64,000 nt of DNA from Pedobacter sp. SYSU D00535 (GTDB taxonomy: Bacteria; Bacteroidota; Bacteroidia; Sphingobacteriales; Sphingobacteriaceae), in contig NZ_JAFEWD010000007.1 of assembly GCF_017355855.1 (NCBI RefSeq), positions 1 to 64,000 on the forward strand, written 5' to 3'. This document shows positions 1 through 54,606 of this stretch, one piece after another. Under the pieces are notes generated by a model, which saw only the letters and a list, made by a program, of their open reading frames with translations, made no database searches and was not told where the DNA came from. Numbering within the stretch: the stretch's first letter is position 1; each line of letters begins with the position of its first letter. Both the position numbers and the translations under genes were made by a program.

Positions 1-162
1 AGAACATCTGCCATACTTAAGCAAATTTTGCTGCCAGCGCTGTATCGCACTATGGCCTCTGATGTTGTAAAGGCGTCGGGCTTCCTCAATATTTACTCTT
101 CCCTGAGCTACCTGCTCCACCACCATCCTTTTGAAGGATTCACTGAATGTCTGTTTGTCCAT
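1..162 (-). CDS. Partial IS3-type transposase OrfA (N-terminal 54 residues)
   Basis: An open frame reads leftward from an ATG at 162 and runs off the window edge. The translation starts MDKQTFSESFKRMVVEQVAQ and continues with an E-E-A-R-R-L-Y-N-I-R turn and an S-A-I-Q-R-W recognition-helix pattern. This is the helix-turn-helix of the small OrfA protein of IS3-family elements (Tnp_1 type), which binds the element ends and forms the OrfAB transposase by programmed frameshift. Only the DNA-binding part is visible, so it cannot be said whether the element is intact. The purL terminator lies about 150 bp upstream of its start. There is no strong ribosome binding site. The family call rests on the N-terminal pattern only. 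Confidence 0.6.
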   Translation of the reverse strand, partial: MDKQTFSESFKRMVVEQVAQGRVNIEEARRLYNIRGHSAIQRWQQNLLKYGRCS

Positions 163-42120: not shown

Positions 42121-42942
42121 TTATTTCAACTGTGCTACAAACTGTTGAATAGCTGCCCCCGGATCCTTTTCTCTCATAAAATTTTCCCCGATCAAAAATC
42201 CATTGAATCCGGCTTTTTTGAGGTCTTTAATAGTTGCCGGGTTACTAATTCCACTCTCTGAAATCTTTAAAAATTGATCCGGAATCAAATTCACCAGATC
42301 GTAAGAGTGTTGCAGGGAGACGGAGAAGTCTGCCAGATTTCGATTATTTACACCAATTGCATCCAAGTCATCGCAGATAGTGTGCTCCAATTCAGCAGCA
42401 TTGTGCACTTCCAGAAGGACGTTCAAGCCGATGCTCTTGGCTAGCTTGGCAAATTGGGCAACTTGTTCCGGACTAAGAATTGCGGCAATAAGTAAAATAA
42501 TATCGGCACCGATCGATTTTGCTTCCAGGATTTGATACTCATCAAGAATAAATTCCTTGCGCAGGATGGGGATTTGATTAAGCGGACGAGCCTGCAACAC
42601 GTCTTCCATATGTCCGCCAAAAAATTTCTGGTCCGTCAAAATGGATAAAGCGGATGCTCCCGCATTTGCATAGTCCTGCGTTACGTCCGACACAAAGACT
42701 TCACTGTTTATTACTCCTTTTGAGGGAGAGGCCCTTTTAAACTCCGCGATAATACCTGTGCGTTCTGGATCCAAAATAAACTGGCGGATAGAGTAGCATT
42801 CCCGGTGAAAGTACTCACTCTCTTCCAGTCTGATAATAGGGGTGTTCTGACGTGCTTCCAACACCTCTTTATGCTTTTGCACCACTATTTTGTCCAGTAT
42901 TGTATTTCCTGAACCTGTGATTGGCGTATATCCTGTACTCAT
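42121..42942 (-). CDS. trpC: Indole-3-glycerol phosphate synthase
   Basis: This 273-residue TIM barrel closes the indole ring in tryptophan synthesis. It shows FKRASPSKGVI near residue 89, LTDQKFFGG near residue 121, RKEFILDEYQI near residue 146, and GVNNRNL near residue 196 with SESGI near 229. It is 5 bp after trpG. It is the third and last trp gene of the unit. trpD, usual between trpG and trpC, is missing here, as are trpF, trpB and trpA. Confidence 0.95.
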   Translation of the reverse strand: MSTGYTPITGSGNTILDKIVVQKHKEVLEARQNTPIIRLEESEYFHRECYSIRQFILDPERTGIIAEFKRASPSKGVINSEVFVSDVTQDYANAGASALSILTDQKFFGGHMEDVLQARPLNQIPILRKEFILDEYQILEAKSIGADIILLIAAILSPEQVAQFAKLAKSIGLNVLLEVHNAAELEHTICDDLDAIGVNNRNLADFSVSLQHSYDLVNLIPDQFLKISESGISNPATIKDLKKAGFNGFLIGENFMREKDPGAAIQQFVAQLK

Positions 42943-42947
42943 TCTTT

Positions 42948-43529
42948 TTAGGCCTTTTCCGGACTTTTTGTTAACCAGTTTTTAATCATTTGTTTGCCGT
43001 GTTCTGTTAGTACCGATTCAGGGTGAAACTGAACGCCCCGAACATCGTATTTCAAATGGCGTAAGGCCATTATTACCCCCTCGGCATCTTTTGCTGTCAC
43101 TTTTACTTCTTCAGGCAGACCTTCTCTGCTAACTGCCCAGGAGTGATACCGGCCAATGTTGAAGGATGAAGGGAGTTCCGAAAAAAGTGTTTCCTCTTCG
43201 TCCAGCACTTGCATTGCAGTGGCGCGGCCATGAACGGGGTATGATAGATTGTATAAGCTTCCGCCAAACACTTCCGCCATGGCCTGCATTCCCAAACACA
43301 CTCCTAAAATGCTTTTGGTTGGTGCGTAGGTTTTGATAACGTCTAACAATAAGCCCGCTTCTGACGGTATTCCAGGCCCGGGAGAAAGCAATATTTTATC
43401 GAATTGCTCCACATCGCTCAGGTCAAATTTGTCATTCCTCCAAACTGTAGGTTCATATCCGCACTCGTGCAACAGGTGCACCAGATTAAAGGTAAATGAA
43501 TCGTAATTATCAACAACTAAAATCTTCAT
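42948..43529 (-). CDS. trpG: Anthranilate synthase glutaminase subunit
   Basis: This 193-residue class I glutamine amidotransferase supplies ammonia to TrpE. The N-terminus ILVVDNYDSFTFNLVHLL, the oxyanion region LSPGPGIP near residue 50, the nucleophile in GVCLGMQAM near residue 81, and His/Glu in GVQFHPESVL near residue 168 are all present. It is 2 bp after trpE. A shared role with para-aminobenzoate synthesis (pabA) is possible, but the leader and neighbours point to tryptophan. Confidence 0.95.
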   Translation of the reverse strand: MKILVVDNYDSFTFNLVHLLHECGYEPTVWRNDKFDLSDVEQFDKILLSPGPGIPSEAGLLLDVIKTYAPTKSILGVCLGMQAMAEVFGGSLYNLSYPVHGRATAMQVLDEEETLFSELPSSFNIGRYHSWAVSREGLPEEVKVTAKDAEGVIMALRHLKYDVRGVQFHPESVLTEHGKQMIKNWLTKSPEKA

Positions 43530-43531
43530 CG

Positions 43532-44962
43532 TTATATCTTTTCAACTTGTGGAACTATACTGCCCGCCATCTCTATCGCTTTTCGTAAAGCCATTATTTT
43601 ATTATTTACCTCGTTTAATTCGCTTTGTGGATCTGAGTCTGCCACGATACCTGCTCCTGCCTGGTAATGCAATACGTTGTTCCGGCTCATGAATGAGCGA
43701 ATCATAATGGCATGATTAAAGTCGCCATTAAAGCCCATAAAACCGATAGCACCGCTGTAGAAGCCTCTTGGTCCGTTTTCGAAACGATCTATTAAAGTCA
43801 TCGCCATGTATTTCGGTGCACCGCTCAATGTTCCTGCAGGGAAGGTGTCTCCTACTACGTAGAACGGGTTCGCGTTTTCCTGAAGCTGGCCAGTAACTTT
43901 TGATACCAGGTGAATAAGATGCGAATAGTACTGCACTTCCTTAAACGCTTTTACCTGCACATTATCGCAGTGCCTGCTCAGATCATTTCGTGCGAGATCC
44001 ACCAGCATCACGTGTTCGGCGCTTTCCTTTGGATCATTCTCCAGCTTGGTTGCCAGCTCGGCATCCAAAACATCATTCCCGGTTCTTCTGAATGTTCCGG
44101 CAATCGGGTAAATGGTAGCCTCCCTGTTCTTAATAGTTAACTGAGCTTCAGGAGAAGATCCGAACAGCTTGAAGTTACCATAGTCGTAGTAGAAGAGGTA
44201 CGGTGATGGGTTGATGGATCGCAGGGCTCTGTAGACGTTGAATTCATCCCCAGTAAAAGCTTTCGAGAAACCACGGGAAGGAACTATCTGAAAAACGTCT
44301 CCGCGGAAGATATGTTGCTTCAGGCTTTCAACTACCTGAATAAACTGCTCGTCGGTGAAGTTTGAATTTTCTTCTGCTGTCGACTCAAAGGGATATTCAG
44401 GGAAGTTCTTGTTCTGTATCAGGTACTGAAGGCGCTCCAGACCCGACTCCTGTTCTTCGTCTGCCAGGTGTTCAAAAAGGTATAATTCGTTTTTGAAATG
44501 ATCTATTGCAATAACATAGCGATAAAGATGATACTGCATTAGCGGGATGTCTCGCTCTCCCCTGCGTTCTGTTGTAAGTTTGATATCTTCAAAAAACTCG
44601 ATGGTCTCATAGGCGAAGTAGCCGAAGAGGCCATTTGAGCTAAATTTAAACGGAGTATCGAGGCTTGATTCAAAGCTGCTGCGGAATTTGGTAACCTCGT
44701 CAGCAAGTTTCAGACCGCCGATCGCTACCTCTTCTGTGGTGCCGTCGGGAAAGTAGGTGCTGAGGGTATTCTTGTCAAGGACAATTCCTGCCATCGGGTC
44801 ACAGCAGACGTAGCTCATACTATTCTCCCGGCTGTGGTAGTCCGAACTTTCAAGAAGCAAGCTGTTCGGAAACACATCCCTTAACCGCAGGTAAATACTT
44901 ACCGGAGTAGTGGTGTCTGCAAGCAGTTTTTTATATGAAGTTTTTAACGAAAATTTTCTCAT
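43532..44962 (-). CDS. trpE: Anthranilate synthase component I
   Basis: This 476-residue chorismate-using enzyme makes anthranilate with TrpG. The chorismate-binding domain has VPSRGFSKAFTGDEFNVYRAL, SPYLFYYDYGNFKLFGSSPEAQL, PIAGTFRRTG, DLARNDLSRHCD and GAPKYMAM. The N-terminal part contains the LLESSDYHSRENSMSY feedback site. It is preceded by a leader peptide with three Trp codons and an attenuator, which identifies it as trpE rather than pabB. Expression is expected to rise when charged tRNA-Trp is scarce. Confidence 0.95.
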   Translation of the reverse strand: MRKFSLKTSYKKLLADTTTPVSIYLRLRDVFPNSLLLESSDYHSRENSMSYVCCDPMAGIVLDKNTLSTYFPDGTTEEVAIGGLKLADEVTKFRSSFESSLDTPFKFSSNGLFGYFAYETIEFFEDIKLTTERRGERDIPLMQYHLYRYVIAIDHFKNELYLFEHLADEEQESGLERLQYLIQNKNFPEYPFESTAEENSNFTDEQFIQVVESLKQHIFRGDVFQIVPSRGFSKAFTGDEFNVYRALRSINPSPYLFYYDYGNFKLFGSSPEAQLTIKNREATIYPIAGTFRRTGNDVLDAELATKLENDPKESAEHVMLVDLARNDLSRHCDNVQVKAFKEVQYYSHLIHLVSKVTGQLQENANPFYVVGDTFPAGTLSGAPKYMAMTLIDRFENGPRGFYSGAIGFMGFNGDFNHAIMIRSFMSRNNVLHYQAGAGIVADSDPQSELNEVNNKIMALRKAIEMAGSIVPQVEKI

Positions 44963-44981: not shown

Positions 44982-45008
44982 AAAAAACCCGACGTTTTCG
45001 CGTCGGGC
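44982..45008 (-). terminator. trp attenuator (intrinsic terminator)
   Basis: On the minus strand the 7-bp arms cccgacg and cgtcggg (44988-44994, 45001-45007) with a 6-nt loop are followed by TTTTTTATTTT, 20 bp before the trpE start. The 5' arm (45000-45008) can alternatively pair with 45056-45064, at the end of the leader frame. Confidence 0.85.
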
Positions 45009-45053
45009 TATATTTATTTTTCGGTTGAATGATCCTATCCTAATAAACATACC

Positions 45054-45113
45054 TTACCCGGCGCATGCTGTTGCTTGCCACCACCAGATCTTAGTATGCA
45101 GAGAGTCTAACAT
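45054..45113 (-). CDS. trpL: trp leader peptide with three Trp codons
   Basis: A 19-codon frame reads MLDSLHTKIWWWQATACAG then TAA. Three consecutive TGG codons lie at 45078-45086. The frame is followed by an intrinsic terminator and then trpE. Its last codons (GCGCCGGGT, 45056-45064) can pair with the terminator's 5' arm: seven Watson-Crick pairs, one mismatch and one wobble. Stalling at the Trp codons would free this stretch and prevent termination. Completed translation to the stop would cover it. The peptide is regulatory, not functional. Confidence 0.85.
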   Translation of the reverse strand: MLDSLHTKIWWWQATACAG

Positions 45114-45158
45114 TTGCACAAAAAAAAGTAAAGATTTTTAAAAACGCAAGTTTATTTT

Positions 45159-45605
45159 TTAGACTGTAGTTGCAAGTAAGGGACGGCCGCTAAGGAGTAT
45201 TCCAGCTAGAACAGTCAGTAAGCCAAGCGTGAAAAATATAGCGATAGTACGATGTTTTATTAAAGAAGAAGTAGCCTTTTTGTGCTTAGAATACCCCACA
45301 GTAATGAGTACCGCAGCGATAATCATCATTACCCCGTGCTCCACTGTCCAATATCTTGCCAACTCATCTTTCATTGCTGCGCCCATATCGTTGGTCATTA
45401 CCAGTGGGCTAACAAAGTATAGAATGATTCCGATAACGATCTGAATATGGGTGGATATCAGTGTCAGCAGATTGAATATTTTGTTACCCTTCGAATATTC
45501 TTTATTTCCAAACCATCCCGCAAAGGCTAATAAGATAGCCACCACTATGGCAATGAGTATTACAAAGCGTGTGATAGAGTGAATTTCGAGTAGTGCTGGA
45601 TACAT
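45159..45605 (-). CDS. Four-helix membrane protein, possibly cytochrome b-like
   Basis: This 148-residue protein has four hydrophobic helices (about 12-32, 45-67, 88-105 and 122-143). His residues near helix ends (THIQIVIG, VEHGVMM, KHRTIAIF) could bind haem, but that is a guess. No other motif is seen. It lies 62 bp after the response regulator in the same direction and ends 46 bp before the trp leader, so it may be the last gene of the signalling cluster. Confidence 0.6.
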   Translation of the reverse strand: MYPALLEIHSITRFVILIAIVVAILLAFAGWFGNKEYSKGNKIFNLLTLISTHIQIVIGIILYFVSPLVMTNDMGAAMKDELARYWTVEHGVMMIIAAVLITVGYSKHKKATSSLIKHRTIAIFFTLGLLTVLAGILLSGRPLLATTV

Positions 45606-48846: not shown

Positions 48847-51800
48847 CTATTTATATAACCAAACCCGCATCAATGAAAGCAACTGATCGGTTTTCACGGG
48901 CTTCGTAATATAATCTGATGCACCCGATGCAATACACTTCTGCCTATCGCCGATCATAGCCTTTGCAGTTACAGCAATGATTGGCAGCTGTTTGTTTTTA
49001 GGCTCTTTTCTGATCCACTGAATCGTTTCATAGCCATCCATCTCCGGCATCATGATATCCATCAGCACAATATCGATGTCTTTGTTTTCATTCAATATTT
49101 CCAGTGCCTCCCGGCCGCTTTCTGCCGTAACAACTTGCAGCCTGGAACGTTCGAAAGCTGCAGTCAGCGCAAAAAGGTTACGCACATCGTCATCCACGAT
49201 TAATACTTTTTTATCATCGAGGATATCGCTTCCGCTCCTAAGGCGAGCAAGTAGCTGCGCTTTTTCTTCTGCAAGCAGTTTCGTATCTACGTGAAGCATT
49301 TTAGAAACCTCATCCAGGATGAGAGCGTCAGAATTGTTCGACTTCATCACCGTCTTGTGAGGAAGGCGTTTTAGGTGAATCAGATCATCCTGGCTAAACT
49401 CCTTCTTCGAATGGATGATAATCGATGTCTGGAACTGCTTGTTCAGATTAAGGTGGTTTGCTATTTTTTCTGATTCGGGTATGCTGTAATCAACTATGAT
49501 ACAATCATAACTTTCCTCTTTAAGCAGAGAGGCGGCGTGATTCGCATTAGGTGCCGTAGACAGCTCCAGGCTGGTATTATCTAGTGTTCGTGTTAAGCGT
49601 TGTAGTTCGTCTTTTTCCTCTTCAATTATCAACACCTTCTTACTCTTCTTCTCATGGAAGGATAAGATTTCCGTGATCAACTCATCGAGCGACTTGTTCG
49701 ATAATGGTTTTAGGTGGAAACTTTTTGCACCGTATTTCAAGGCCAATGCCCGGTTATCCTCGCCAGAAATCAGGTGAACAGGAATATGCCTTAAGTGAAG
49801 ATCGTTCTTAAGTAATTTCAAGATTTTCCAGCCGTTCGATTCCGGAAGGTTAACATCCAGGGTAATAGCGATAGGACTGTAGTTTTGAAGGGCGTCAAAT
49901 ATCTCGAGATAGTTAACCGCCACTATCGCTTTCAGACCAAAGTCGCGAGCTTTGTCAACCATGATTTTGGTGAAGCGCAGGTCATCTTCAACTACCAGGA
50001 TTACCTTGTCGCCAGGAGCGATGTTGTGCTTGTCGTCATCCACTAAAGACTCCGTAACTTCAGGAGTGGCTTTTGCAGCCGCTGCCGGATAGGTAGCTTT
50101 TGCAGTTTCGCCTATTGCCTTTGTTCCTTCTTTATACTTCAATGGCAGGAATAGGGTGAATACACTTCCCCGGCCAAGTTCTGATTCTACAGTAATTGTA
50201 CCCCCCAAAAGTTCGGCAAAGCCTTTACTGATAGAAAGTCCCAGTCCTGTACCTCCGTATTTACGGCTGGTAGATCCCTCCGCCTGCTGGAAGGCTTCGA
50301 AGATAATTCCCTGGGTTTTCTTCGAGATACCAATACCGGTATCTTCAATCGAGAATGCAATCACATGGTCAACACCTGTCAGCGGATTTCGAACTGCGGC
50401 GTCAGGACGCTGAATACGAAGCTTCACACTACCTTTCTCAGTAAACTTGAAGGCATTTGAAAGTAAGTTTTTCAGGATTTGATTCAGACGCTGAATATCG
50501 GTCTCCATGATCTCTGGCAGATCCTCCTGGATGTCGATCTCGAAGTTAAGGTTCTTGGTTTCTGAAATCGGCTTGAATGTGGTTTCCACGAACGAAGCGA
50601 TCTCCCGGAAGCTAACCGGCATAATGTCTGCCGATATAACTCCCGACTCGATCTTAGAGAGATCGAGGATGTCATTAATCAATTGGATCAGGTCATATCC
50701 GCAAGAGTGAATAGTTTTCGCAAAGCGGATTTGTTTTTCGGTTAAGTTCCCGTCATGGTTTTCAAACAATTGCTGAGCAAGGATCAGTAAGCTGTTGAGC
50801 GGTGTCCTCAACTCGTGCGACATGTTTGCAAGGAATTCAGATTTATATTTGGATGTTAGCGTGAGCTGCTCTGCTTTTTCTTCTAATGATCTTCTGGCTT
50901 CTTCTACTTCCTTGTTGATCTGCTCCACCTCTTCTTTTTGTTTCTCAAGAAGCTGTGCTTTATCGTGAAGCTCGTCATTGGCTCTTCTTAACTCTTCCTG
51001 CTGCGCCTTCAACTCGTTGGCAAGAGATTGCGACTGCGCAAGAAGTTCCTCTGTACGGGTATTCGTCTCGATGTTATTTAGTACGATACCGATAGATTCA
51101 GTTAGCTGATCCAGGAAGTCCAAGTGAGTTGGACTAAAGTTTTCAAACGAGGCCAGTTCGATTACGGCTTTAATATTATTCTCGAATAGTACCGGAAGGA
51201 TTACCAATGCTGAAGGGGTGGCATTTCCGATACCAGAGTTTATTTGGAGATAATCTCCGGGGACGTTGGTTAGTAATATTCTTTCTTTGTCGATAGCACA
51301 TTGTCCAACAAGTCCTTCGCTTAAAGAGAACTCCTCGTTGATCTTTCTCTTGTTGTTGTATGCATATCCCGCAAATAGTTTCAGCTTTGCTTCGGCCGCT
51401 TCCGGCTGTTCCAAAATGTAGAATGCTCCGTAACGTGCATTTACAAGTTCTGCCAGCTCAGAAAGTACTTTGTTAGCCACCGCATTTCTATCGCGCTGAC
51501 CTTGAAGCATCTGCGTGAACTTTGCTAAGTTCGATTTCAGCCAGTCTTGCTCGTGGTTCCTTAAGGTTGTTCCTTTAAGGTTGGCAATCATTTGGTTGAT
51601 CGTATCTTTCAATGCTTCCAGCTCTCCTTTTGCTTCCACACGGATGGTCCGGGTTAAGTCTCCCTTCGTTACCGCCGATGCTACTTCCGAGATGGAACGC
51701 ACCTGAACCGTGAGGTTTTGTGCCAGCTGGTTTACGTTCTCTGTTAAGTCTTTCCAGGTTCCTGATGCTCCGGGTACACTCGCCTGACCACCCAATCGAC

Positions 51801-54606
51801 CTTCCACACCCACCTCACGTGCTACCGTTGTTACCTGGTCAGCGAATACGGCTAGTGTGTCGATCATCTCGTTAATTGCATCGGTCAGCTGAGCAACCTC
51901 ACCCATCGCATTGATCGACAGCCGTTGTTTCAGGTTACCTTTCGCCACGGACGTCGCTACTTTCGCAATACCCCGGATCTGTACCGTCAGGTTCGAAGCC
52001 ATCTGGTTTACCGAGTCTGTTAAGTCTTTCCAGGTACCCGCCACACCTTTTACGTGTGCCTGACCACCCAGTTTACCTTCTGTACCCACCTCACGTGCCA
52101 CACGCGTTACCTCGGATGCGAAGGAGTTCAGCTGATCCACCATCGTGTTGATCGTGTTTTTCAACTCCAATACCTCTCCCTTCGCATCGATGATTACCGT
52201 TTTACTTAAGTCTCCGGATGCTACCGCTTTCGTCACCTCGGCGATGTTACGTACCTGAGATGTCAAGTTCGACGACATCTGGTTCACCGAGTCTGTTAAG
52301 TCTTTCCAGGTACCCGCTACCCCAGGCACGAATGCCTGACCTCCCAGGTTACCGTCGGTTCCTACCTCCCGTGCCACACGAGTTACCTCGGATGCAAAAC
52401 CGCGAAGCTGATCCACCATCGTATTGATCGTTTCTTTCAGCTGCAGGATCTCGCCTCGTACGTCGACCGTAATCTTTTTAGACAAGTCACCGTTTGCTAC
52501 CGCGATGGATACATCCGCTATGTTACGTAACTGTGCAGTTAAGTTACCGGCCATTTTATTTACCGAGTCAGTTAAGTCTTTCCAGGTTCCGTCTACTCCC
52601 GGTACGTTTGCCTGACCTCCCAACTGACCTTCAGAACCCACCTCCCGTGCTACACGAGTTACCTCGGATGCAAAGCCACGAAGTTGGTCCACCATCGTGT
52701 TAATTGTATTTTTTAGCTCCAGGAGCTCGCCTTTTGCATTTACCGTGATCTTTCGGGAAAGGTCACCCTTTGCTACCGCCGTTGTTACCTCAGCGATGTT
52801 ACGTACCTGAGACGTTAAGTTGTCGGCCATCTTATTTACCGAGTCGGTTAAGTCTTTCCAGGTACCACCTACTCCGGGTACGTTTGCCTGACCTCCAAGC
52901 TGCCCTTCAGAACCTACCTCACGTGCTACCCGCGTTACCTCCGAACCGAAGGAGTTCAGCTGATCCACCATCGTATTGATAGTTACTTTCAGCTCCAGCA
53001 TTTCCCCTTTTACGTCCACCGTAATTTTCTTGGAAAGGTCACCCTTGGCTACCGCCGTCGTTACCTCGGCGATGTTCCGCACCTGGCCCGTAAGGTTACC
53101 AGCCATTTGGTTTACCGAGTCGGTCAAATCTTTCCAGGTACCTCCAACACCCGGTACATTTGCCTGTCCACCCAGTTTCCCTTCTGTACCTACCTCTCTC
53201 GCCACACGAGTTACCTCAGACGAGAAGGAGTTCAGCTGGTCCACCATCGTGTTGATCGTATTCTTAAGCTCGAGAAGCTCACCTTTCGCATCTACCGTAA
53301 TTTTACGGGAAAGGTCTCCCTTCGCTACCGCCGTTGTTACGTCCGCAATGTTACGCACCTGGTCGGTAAGGTTAGATCCCATCTGGTTTACAGAGTCTGT
53401 CAAATCTTTCCAAACCCCGCCGACACCTTTTACCTTCGCCTGGCCTCCCAGCTTACCTTCAGTACCTACTTCGAGCGCCACACGCGTTACCTCGGATGCG
53501 AAGGAGTTCAGCTGATCCACCATCGTATTGATGGTTTTCTTCAGCTCCAACATCTCCCCTTTTACGTCTACGGTAATTTTCTTAGACAAGTCACCGTTGG
53601 CTACCGCCGTCGTTACACCAGCAATATTACGCACCTGTGAAGTCAGGTTACCGGCCATCCGGTTTACGGAGTCTGTTAAATCCTTCCATGTTCCGGCAAC
53701 CCCCGGTACCTTTGCCTGTCCACCCAGCTTTCCTTCCGTACCCACCTCGAGCGCCACACGCGTTACCTCGGATGAGAAGGAGTTTAGCTGATCCACCATC
53801 GTATTAATTGTATTTTTCAGCTCCAGGATCTCTCCTTTAGCTTCTACCGTGATTTTTCTTGAAAGGTCGCCTTTTGCCACCGCTGTTGTTACCGCAGCAA
53901 CATTACGTACCTGGGCTGTCAAGTTACCTGCCATCAGGTTTACTGAATCGGTAAGCTCGGCCCATACACCGTCTACTCCTTTAATTTTTGCCTGCTCTCC
54001 TAGTTTTCCTTCAGCACCTACCTGACGAGCAACCCGTGTTACCTCCATTGTAAATAAACGGAGCTGCTCGATCATCTGGTTCGATTCTTTCGCAATACGA
54101 AGGAATTCTCCTTTAAGCGGCTGGCCGTTTATCTCCAATGGAATTTGTCTAGATAGATTTCCATTTGCAACGGAATTGATCATTCCGGCAATTTCAAGGG
54201 TAGGATATGTAAGGTCGGTGATAAGATTGTTTAAGGATTTTACTCCAACGGCCCACTCTCCGCGGGCATCAGGTAGTTCAATCCGTTTCGAAAGATTTCC
54301 TTTCTTTCCAATTACTTTTTCGGCGGTACAGATTTCTGTCACCAAACGCTCATTCATATCGATGATCTCGTTCAGTACTTCACAAATTCTACCACTAATC
54401 CCTGCCTGAGTTACTGGCATCCGAACGTTTAGTTTCCCATTCTTAACCTGGGAAAGTACATTAAGAAGTTCTTTCAAATCCAAAGACTCTTCTAGTTCTG
54501 TGGCAAGGTGGTTAGTGTTTTCCTTCTCTAACAAAATTTCCTGTTCCATATATTTATATAATGAATCGACTAGTTGGCCATATTCCTGGCAAAGCCGGGA
54601 ACTCAT
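48847..54606 (-). CDS. Giant soluble hybrid histidine kinase with nine HAMP repeats
   Basis: This 1919-residue protein has no membrane helix or signal. Residues 1-213 are HAMP-like linkers. Residues 214-1012 are eight complete 92-residue repeats and one partial one, each starting [TV]WK-LTDSVN, of the poly-HAMP type. A GAF domain follows at ~1040-1180, a coiled coil at 1185-1250, HisKA with His1264 ([10 protein letters not shown]) and an ATPase domain to ~1490. Three receivers are centred on Asp1584 (LDVNLPES), Asp1706 (VDYSIPES) and Asp1850 ([10 protein letters not shown]). The middle receiver is atypical (EEE pocket, KS in place of KP). The layout resembles fungal Nik1/Os-1 osmosensor kinases. 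It is the first gene of a four-gene signalling cluster. Confidence 0.93.
51571..53967 (-). repeat. Tandem 276-bp coding repeats (HAMP units)
   Basis: Eight full 276-bp units and one partial unit encode the 92-residue HAMP repeats. The reading frame stays open and the units are very alike, especially units 4-6. Units could change number by recombination. Confidence 0.95.

Follow-up and report, generated by a model that had tools for sequence, protein, structure and literature searches.

The trpE gene of Pedobacter sp. SYSU D00535 is preceded by a short open reading frame (ORF) with consecutive tryptophan codons, which raises the question of whether the operon is controlled through translation of a leader peptide and, if so, by what kind of RNA switch. 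The window analyzed here, a stretch of 64,000 nt from contig NZ_JAFEWD010000007.1, carries all parts of the locus on its minus strand: a 19-codon ORF that includes Trp-Trp-Trp, then an intrinsic terminator and, after these, trpE-trpG-trpC. The original prediction of a Trp-codon leader and an intrinsic terminator ahead of trpE is borne out in this order, which is kept in relatives; its coordinates proved right within one or two bases, the strand having been left unstated. Sequence comparison and folding models indicate that trpEGC is very probably under ribosome-mediated transcription attenuation, with the four segments of the classical design. The features of the locus are as follows.

45054..45113, minus strand: leader peptide ORF MLDSLHTKIWWWQATACAG (MLDSLHTKIWWWQATACAG, 19 sense codons), with ATG at 45113 and stop TAA at 45056-45054; orthologues in relatives
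45094..45098, minus strand: segment 1, outer 1:2 strand CAUAC (His-Thr codons), from the minimum free energy (MFE) fold and the cross-species partner-swap test
45078..45086, minus strand: three consecutive Trp codons (regulatory), read in the window and conserved in alignment A1
45057..45064, minus strand: segment 2, GCGCCGGG, either a partner of the Trp-codon region in the 1:2 hairpin or, in the 2:3 antiterminator, of the terminator 5' arm, from alignment covariation and folding
45042..45053, minus strand: GGUAUGUUUAUU, directly past the stop, 3' strand of the outer 1:2 helix or, alternatively, 5' strand of the antiterminator extension, from folding and partner-swap
45009..45018, minus strand: AAUAAAUAUA, 3' strand of the antiterminator extension, from the stalled-ribosome fold and the partner-swap of the extended 2:3 pairing
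45001..45008, minus strand: segment 3, terminator 5' arm GCCCGACG, from folding and from pairing and covariation in the alignment
44982..44994, minus strand: segment 4, terminator 3' arm and U-run, from window reading, folding and alignment
43532..44962, minus strand: trpE, anthranilate synthase component I, 476 aa, starting at 44962; its TIGR00564 match lies below the model's own cut-off, as in all genomes of the order
42948..43529, minus strand: trpG, glutamine amidotransferase component, 193 aa, from its translation
42121..42942, minus strand: trpC, indole-3-glycerol-phosphate synthase, 273 aa, from its translation

Architecture of the leader

The terminator, a GC-rich hairpin (GCCCGACG-CGAAAA-CGUCGGGU) followed by a U-run, has its arms at 45008-45001 and 44994-44987, with the U-run reaching 44982 (-13.7 kcal/mol). 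The codon run TGGTGGTGG occurs three times in the window against 0.27 expected, and the only occurrence that is a leader codon run is the one before trpE. The whole leader folds better than its shuffled versions (z -3.9). In its MFE fold, an outer helix pairs CAUAC (45098-45094) with GUAUG, and the Trp codons are paired with segment 2. The core of the alternative antiterminator places GCGCCGGG (45064-45057) opposite CCCGACGC (45007-45000), one of the 8 pairs being a C-A mismatch; in the window, this core taken alone is not better than with shuffled spacers (z -1.4, p 0.13). Beyond segment 2, the antiterminator is extended by pairing of UAUGUUUAUU (45051-45042) with AAUAAAUAUA (45018-45009).

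Conservation among relatives

TrpE searches yielded about 180 loci, which were oriented and freed of duplicates. In 169 non-identical leaders, trpE is preceded by a short Trp-codon ORF and an intrinsic terminator downstream of it: 110 from the family group of the window, 44 from other Bacteroidia and 15, out of 20 sampled, from other classes of the phylum. Most of them read WWW (107), the remainder WW (48), WxW (9) or a single Trp (5). Nearly every sampled trpE of the class has a Trp leader upstream; an exception is L178, where trpE lacks the leader and, judged by eye, seems to lie directly behind another gene. One further locus, L013 (trpE of G008), has its match split over two frames with internal stops, suggesting a frameshift in the gene or in the assembly.

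For the Sphingobacteriaceae, 84 leaders were aligned from sequence alone with MAFFT (alignment A1). The original prediction had proposed such an alignment as a check, and its expectation holds: the 84 leaders keep the Trp codons, the terminator and a covarying antiterminator. The terminator is paired in 98.2% of the cells of A1, with a covariation of 0.309 and 55 double changes. The antiterminator core (segment 2 with the 5' arm) is paired in 78.6% of cells, and its covariation of 0.167 compares with at most 0.083 for slid versions, its 40 double changes with 18.6 in shuffles. Segment 2 starts 9–17 nt past the last Trp codon in 83% of the family leaders versus 15% expected at random, a spacing that fits the stretch covered by a ribosome at the last Trp codon.

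The outer 1:2 helix was judged by a partner-swap test, because gaps in A1 break the register in column counts. In this test, the strand of each leader is compared with its own partner and with the partners of other species, and the p values given here ignore the relatedness of the sequences. The outer 1:2 helix prefers its own partner (mean z -0.97, p 4e-9), while three control pairings give z of about 0; the inner 1:2 helix (p 0.006) and the extended 2:3 pairing (mean z -0.36, p 0.001) do so as well. The outer strands are CAUAC:GUAUG in the window, CAAAAUAC:GUAUUUUG in Daejeonella and UAUCAA:UUGGUA in Sphingobacterium.

Another conserved element, AAUCAACCAAAACC, is found between segment 2 and the terminator in Sphingobacterium, Daejeonella, Olivibacter and Parapedobacter, where it is strongly conserved (e.g. 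L080, L039). Part of it, CAAAACC, is accounted for by its pairing with GUAUUUUG or UGGUUUU, which leaves AAUCAAC aside.

These data bear on a simpler account of the terminator, namely that it merely ends the transcript of the same-strand ORF upstream of the leader (45605-45159) and that the Trp ORF is a functionless chance feature. A same-strand gene does end at 45159, and intergenic terminators are common. However, the Trp codons, their spacing and the covarying antiterminator are conserved across the family and the class, whereas trpE paralogue matches of low similarity (L016-L020) are without the arrangement of Trp leader and terminator; moreover, an independent copy of the Trp leader stands before trpD (see below). 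We therefore give this account almost no credence and regard the leader as a switch that is real and, on comparative sequence evidence, probably functional, and whose kind is known.

Folding and proposed operation of the switch

The alternative folds were computed with a ribosome footprint masked at the Trp codons or at the stop, and with the RNA ending at the terminator loop. With the ribosome on the Trp codons, the window leader forms one long antiterminator of 18 bp (-18.2 kcal/mol for RNA to the terminator loop). With the ribosome at the stop, the long antiterminator is lost and the best fold reaches -7.8 kcal/mol, the 5' arm still being computed as 0.68 paired upstream through weak alternative pairings. 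Capture of the 5' arm (>0.5) is computed for 95% of the 169 leaders in the stalled state, compared with 47% at the stop, 54% with no ribosome and 58% with a shuffled spacer. The geometry put forward in the original prediction is right for the window: segment 2 would be covered by a ribosome at the stop and left free by one at the Trp codons. The position of the stop codon relative to the end of segment 2 varies across leaders, between 12 nt ahead of it and 25 nt past it, so that coverage of segment 2 by a ribosome at the stop is not equally true of all of them.

Full-length equilibrium folding with ribosome masks gave no discrimination, the terminator being nearly always preferred, stalled ribosome or not. 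Since the terminator wins at equilibrium in the full-length RNA, the switch would have to be kinetic, decided during RNA synthesis. Known attenuators decide while the RNA is being made.

The original prediction also favored a compact two-state switch and set it against the four-segment enterobacterial model. In such a switch only segment 2 and the two terminator arms would matter, and neither a 1:2 hairpin nor the spacer between stop and terminator would play a role. Segment 2 does sit at the ORF end, and its pairing with the 5' arm covaries in A1; nevertheless, the segment named makes up only half of the 18 bp. The outer 1:2 helix and the antiterminator extension are backed by both folding and the cross-species tests, and Rfam RF01692 includes this outer helix as well. 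A switch confined to these three elements is thus improbable, and the 1:2 hairpin with its co-varying outer helix, together with the extended antiterminator, argues for four segments.

In the four-segment reading, transcription would start almost at the leader ATG. When Trp-tRNA is ample, the ribosome would reach the stop and cover segment 2 and the strand next to it, allowing terminator 3:4 to form. When Trp-tRNA is scarce, the ribosome would wait at the Trp codons and break the 1:2 hairpin; segment 2 and UAUGUUUAUU could then pair with the emerging AAUAAAUAUA-GCCCGACGC over about 18 bp, ahead of synthesis of the terminator 3' arm, and once this antiterminator had formed, transcription would continue into trpE. 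If the leader were not translated at all, the 1:2 hairpin would form and termination would be the default. The comparisons and folds show the parts in the sequence, how these are conserved, spaced and covarying, and the existence of alternative folds; the termination itself, the stalling of the ribosome, the response to tryptophan and the start site are inferred. The leader has the features of sequence and structure by which trpL-type attenuators are recognized: leader codons matching the amino acid, an intrinsic terminator between the ORF and the first structural gene, an antiterminator that excludes the terminator and lies one ribosome footprint past the regulatory codons, and a 1:2 hairpin around those codons.

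T-box and TRAP-like systems also control trp operons in other phyla, and the leader RNA could in principle be read by such a sensor (a T-box binding tRNA-Trp or a TRAP-like protein), the ORF being incidental. This is very unlikely here: the Rfam matches of the window up to E 10 include no T-box, the leader shows no obvious run of GAG/UAG repeats, and neither sensor would explain the in-frame Trp codons and the ribosome-sized gap between them and segment 2.

Predicted promoter and 5' end of the leader transcript

The sigma-A -7 box of the phylum is TAnnTTTG, located at -12 to -5 (PMC9723704). Two candidate promoter elements are found in the window.

45119..45130, minus strand: putative -7 promoter region TACTTTTTTTTG, a degenerate TAnnTTTG, from comparison with relatives
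45149-45147, minus strand: possible -33 TTG, listed with the putative -7 region

These would place the transcription start of the window about 1 nt before the leader ATG, an assignment that is indirect because the -7 box is degenerate (TACTTTTTTTTG). Among relatives, TAnnTTTG occurs within 60 nt upstream in 89 of 115 leaders versus 6% by chance, and it ends no more than 14 nt before the ATG in 63% of leaders (72/115), compared with 37 of 579 long ORFs. Among the 60 family leaders that have the box, 49 imply a 5' UTR of 1–5 nt; outside the family, the predicted length is often 12–14 nt. We lean slightly toward the view that the trp attenuator of Sphingobacteriaceae operates on a nearly leaderless mRNA, with initiation at an AUG 1–5 nt from the 5' end, no Shine-Dalgarno sequence and a start that is early enough for coupling to the polymerase over about 100 nt. 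In Flavobacterium psychrophilum, leaderless mRNAs make up only 5.5% (PMC9723704), and in F. johnsoniae 87% of transcripts have a leader of more than 10 nt (PMC6847099).

Relationship to described attenuators

A comparative study by Vitreschak and colleagues in 2004 is said to have predicted attenuators in the phylum. The Bacteroid-trp family of Rfam, RF01692, represents a Bacteroidete tryptophan peptide leader (Weinberg et al. 2010, PMC2864571, Table 1) and has been likened to the E. coli attenuator (PMC6414381), and strong clues for leader-peptide attenuation were reported ahead of amino-acid operons of F. psychrophilum (PMC9723704). The proposals in PMC6414381 and PMC9723704 concern the same phylum and the same type of control, in another order and as in-silico or transcriptome-map statements. 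In the literature searched, we found no sequence-level analysis of Sphingobacteriaceae leaders.

RF01692 matches the flavobacterial orthologues L145, L147 and L163 at 59–79 bits, above its gathering threshold of 49 bits, but the window is not among its matches up to E 10, and the family relatives L002, L006 and L009 give none either. The model and the window leader share the position upstream of trpE in the phylum, a Trp-rich leader ORF, the end of the model at the terminator 5' arm and a hairpin that holds the Trp codons and is closed by UAC (just before the codons) with GUA (just after segment 2). They differ in the terminator, CCCGACG in RF01692 versus GGCUUGUC in the window, and in segment 2. 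In addition, segment 2 of several flavobacterial leaders pairs with the terminator loop and 3' arm, whereas that of the window's family pairs with the 5' arm. By sequence, the window leader is thus a branch, missed by the RF01692 model, of a catalogued kind that is not unknown in the phylum.

Antitermination through the loop and 3' arm was rejected for the window's family and is seen only in some other clades, namely in L180-L183, L185 and L186 from other classes and in L145, L150 and L163 of the flavobacterial type. The antiterminator topology of these leaders is a different one; in L185, UCUCAGUGAUAAC is paired to GUUAUCACUGAGA over 13 bp.

The enterobacterial trpL model (RF00513, Trp_leader) scores the window at 14.8 bits (E 2.8), below its gathering threshold of 41. 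Trp codons, the 1:2, 2:3 and 3:4 alternatives and a terminator before trpE are common to both, whereas the window leader has three Trp codons versus two in trpL, a predicted 5' UTR of almost no length and an antiterminator lengthened by a second helix.

Other leaders in the same genome

Genome-wide, just two TGGTGGTGG runs encode Trp-Trp-Trp within a short leader ORF, one before trpE and one before the unlinked trpD; the other in-frame sites, which fall within a larger gene or in a frame that overlaps such a gene, were discarded. The trpD leader MMVLSNVYIWWWNFD (L265, G000:C11:491900-492700) has Trp-Trp-Trp, a terminator and a stalled-state antiterminator. Among relatives, a Trp leader precedes trpD in 9 of 11 cases in which trpD is apart from trpE, and no WW leader was found before trpD where it lies inside the trpE operon. 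A His leader, MILVFTHHMHAHHRHCGDR, lies upstream of hisG (L209), and ilvD (L238) follows a Val/Leu leader ORF ending in VLVVLLLNCMSKAY, whose end GAAGGCGU matches a terminator arm, ACGCCUUC. The sequence suggests that a single genome uses leader-peptide attenuation again for trpD, his and ilv.

In L209, as in L204, L208 and L212, the His-rich ORF is without an obvious intrinsic terminator, and ATGTATGTTTCTACGTGAA...CCGAAT...TTGGTCTGATTA is conserved before hisG. The trpE, trpD and his leaders have a similar TATGTTT behind their stop codons. Elsewhere in the window, positions 117-162 (minus strand) hold ATGGACAAACAGACATTCAGTGAATCCTTCAAAA..., near-identical copies of which occur at several contig ends (G000 C9, C10, C18), so that the repeat is probably a multi-copy insertion sequence; positions 48847-54606 encode a hybrid histidine kinase of 1919 aa that contains many HAMP-like repeats in tandem.

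Implications

Among the Bacteroidia sampled, almost all trpE genes follow a leader of the peptide-attenuation kind, whose mechanism was established in enterobacteria and which is already catalogued for flavobacteria. What appears new, on the sequence comparisons, is the extension of this kind to Sphingobacteriaceae and other classes, the second Trp leader before an unlinked trpD and the promoters predicting a 5' UTR of 1–5 nt. The system is otherwise mostly ordinary, and its main interest lies in its breadth and in the near-leaderless leader. If the near-leaderless reading is true, the attenuator would provide a naturally occurring, tunable readout of transcription-translation coupling and of leaderless initiation, and the near-absent 5' UTR, if real, would offer a direct route to the question of how initiation can be rapid enough for coupling in a phylum without Shine-Dalgarno use.
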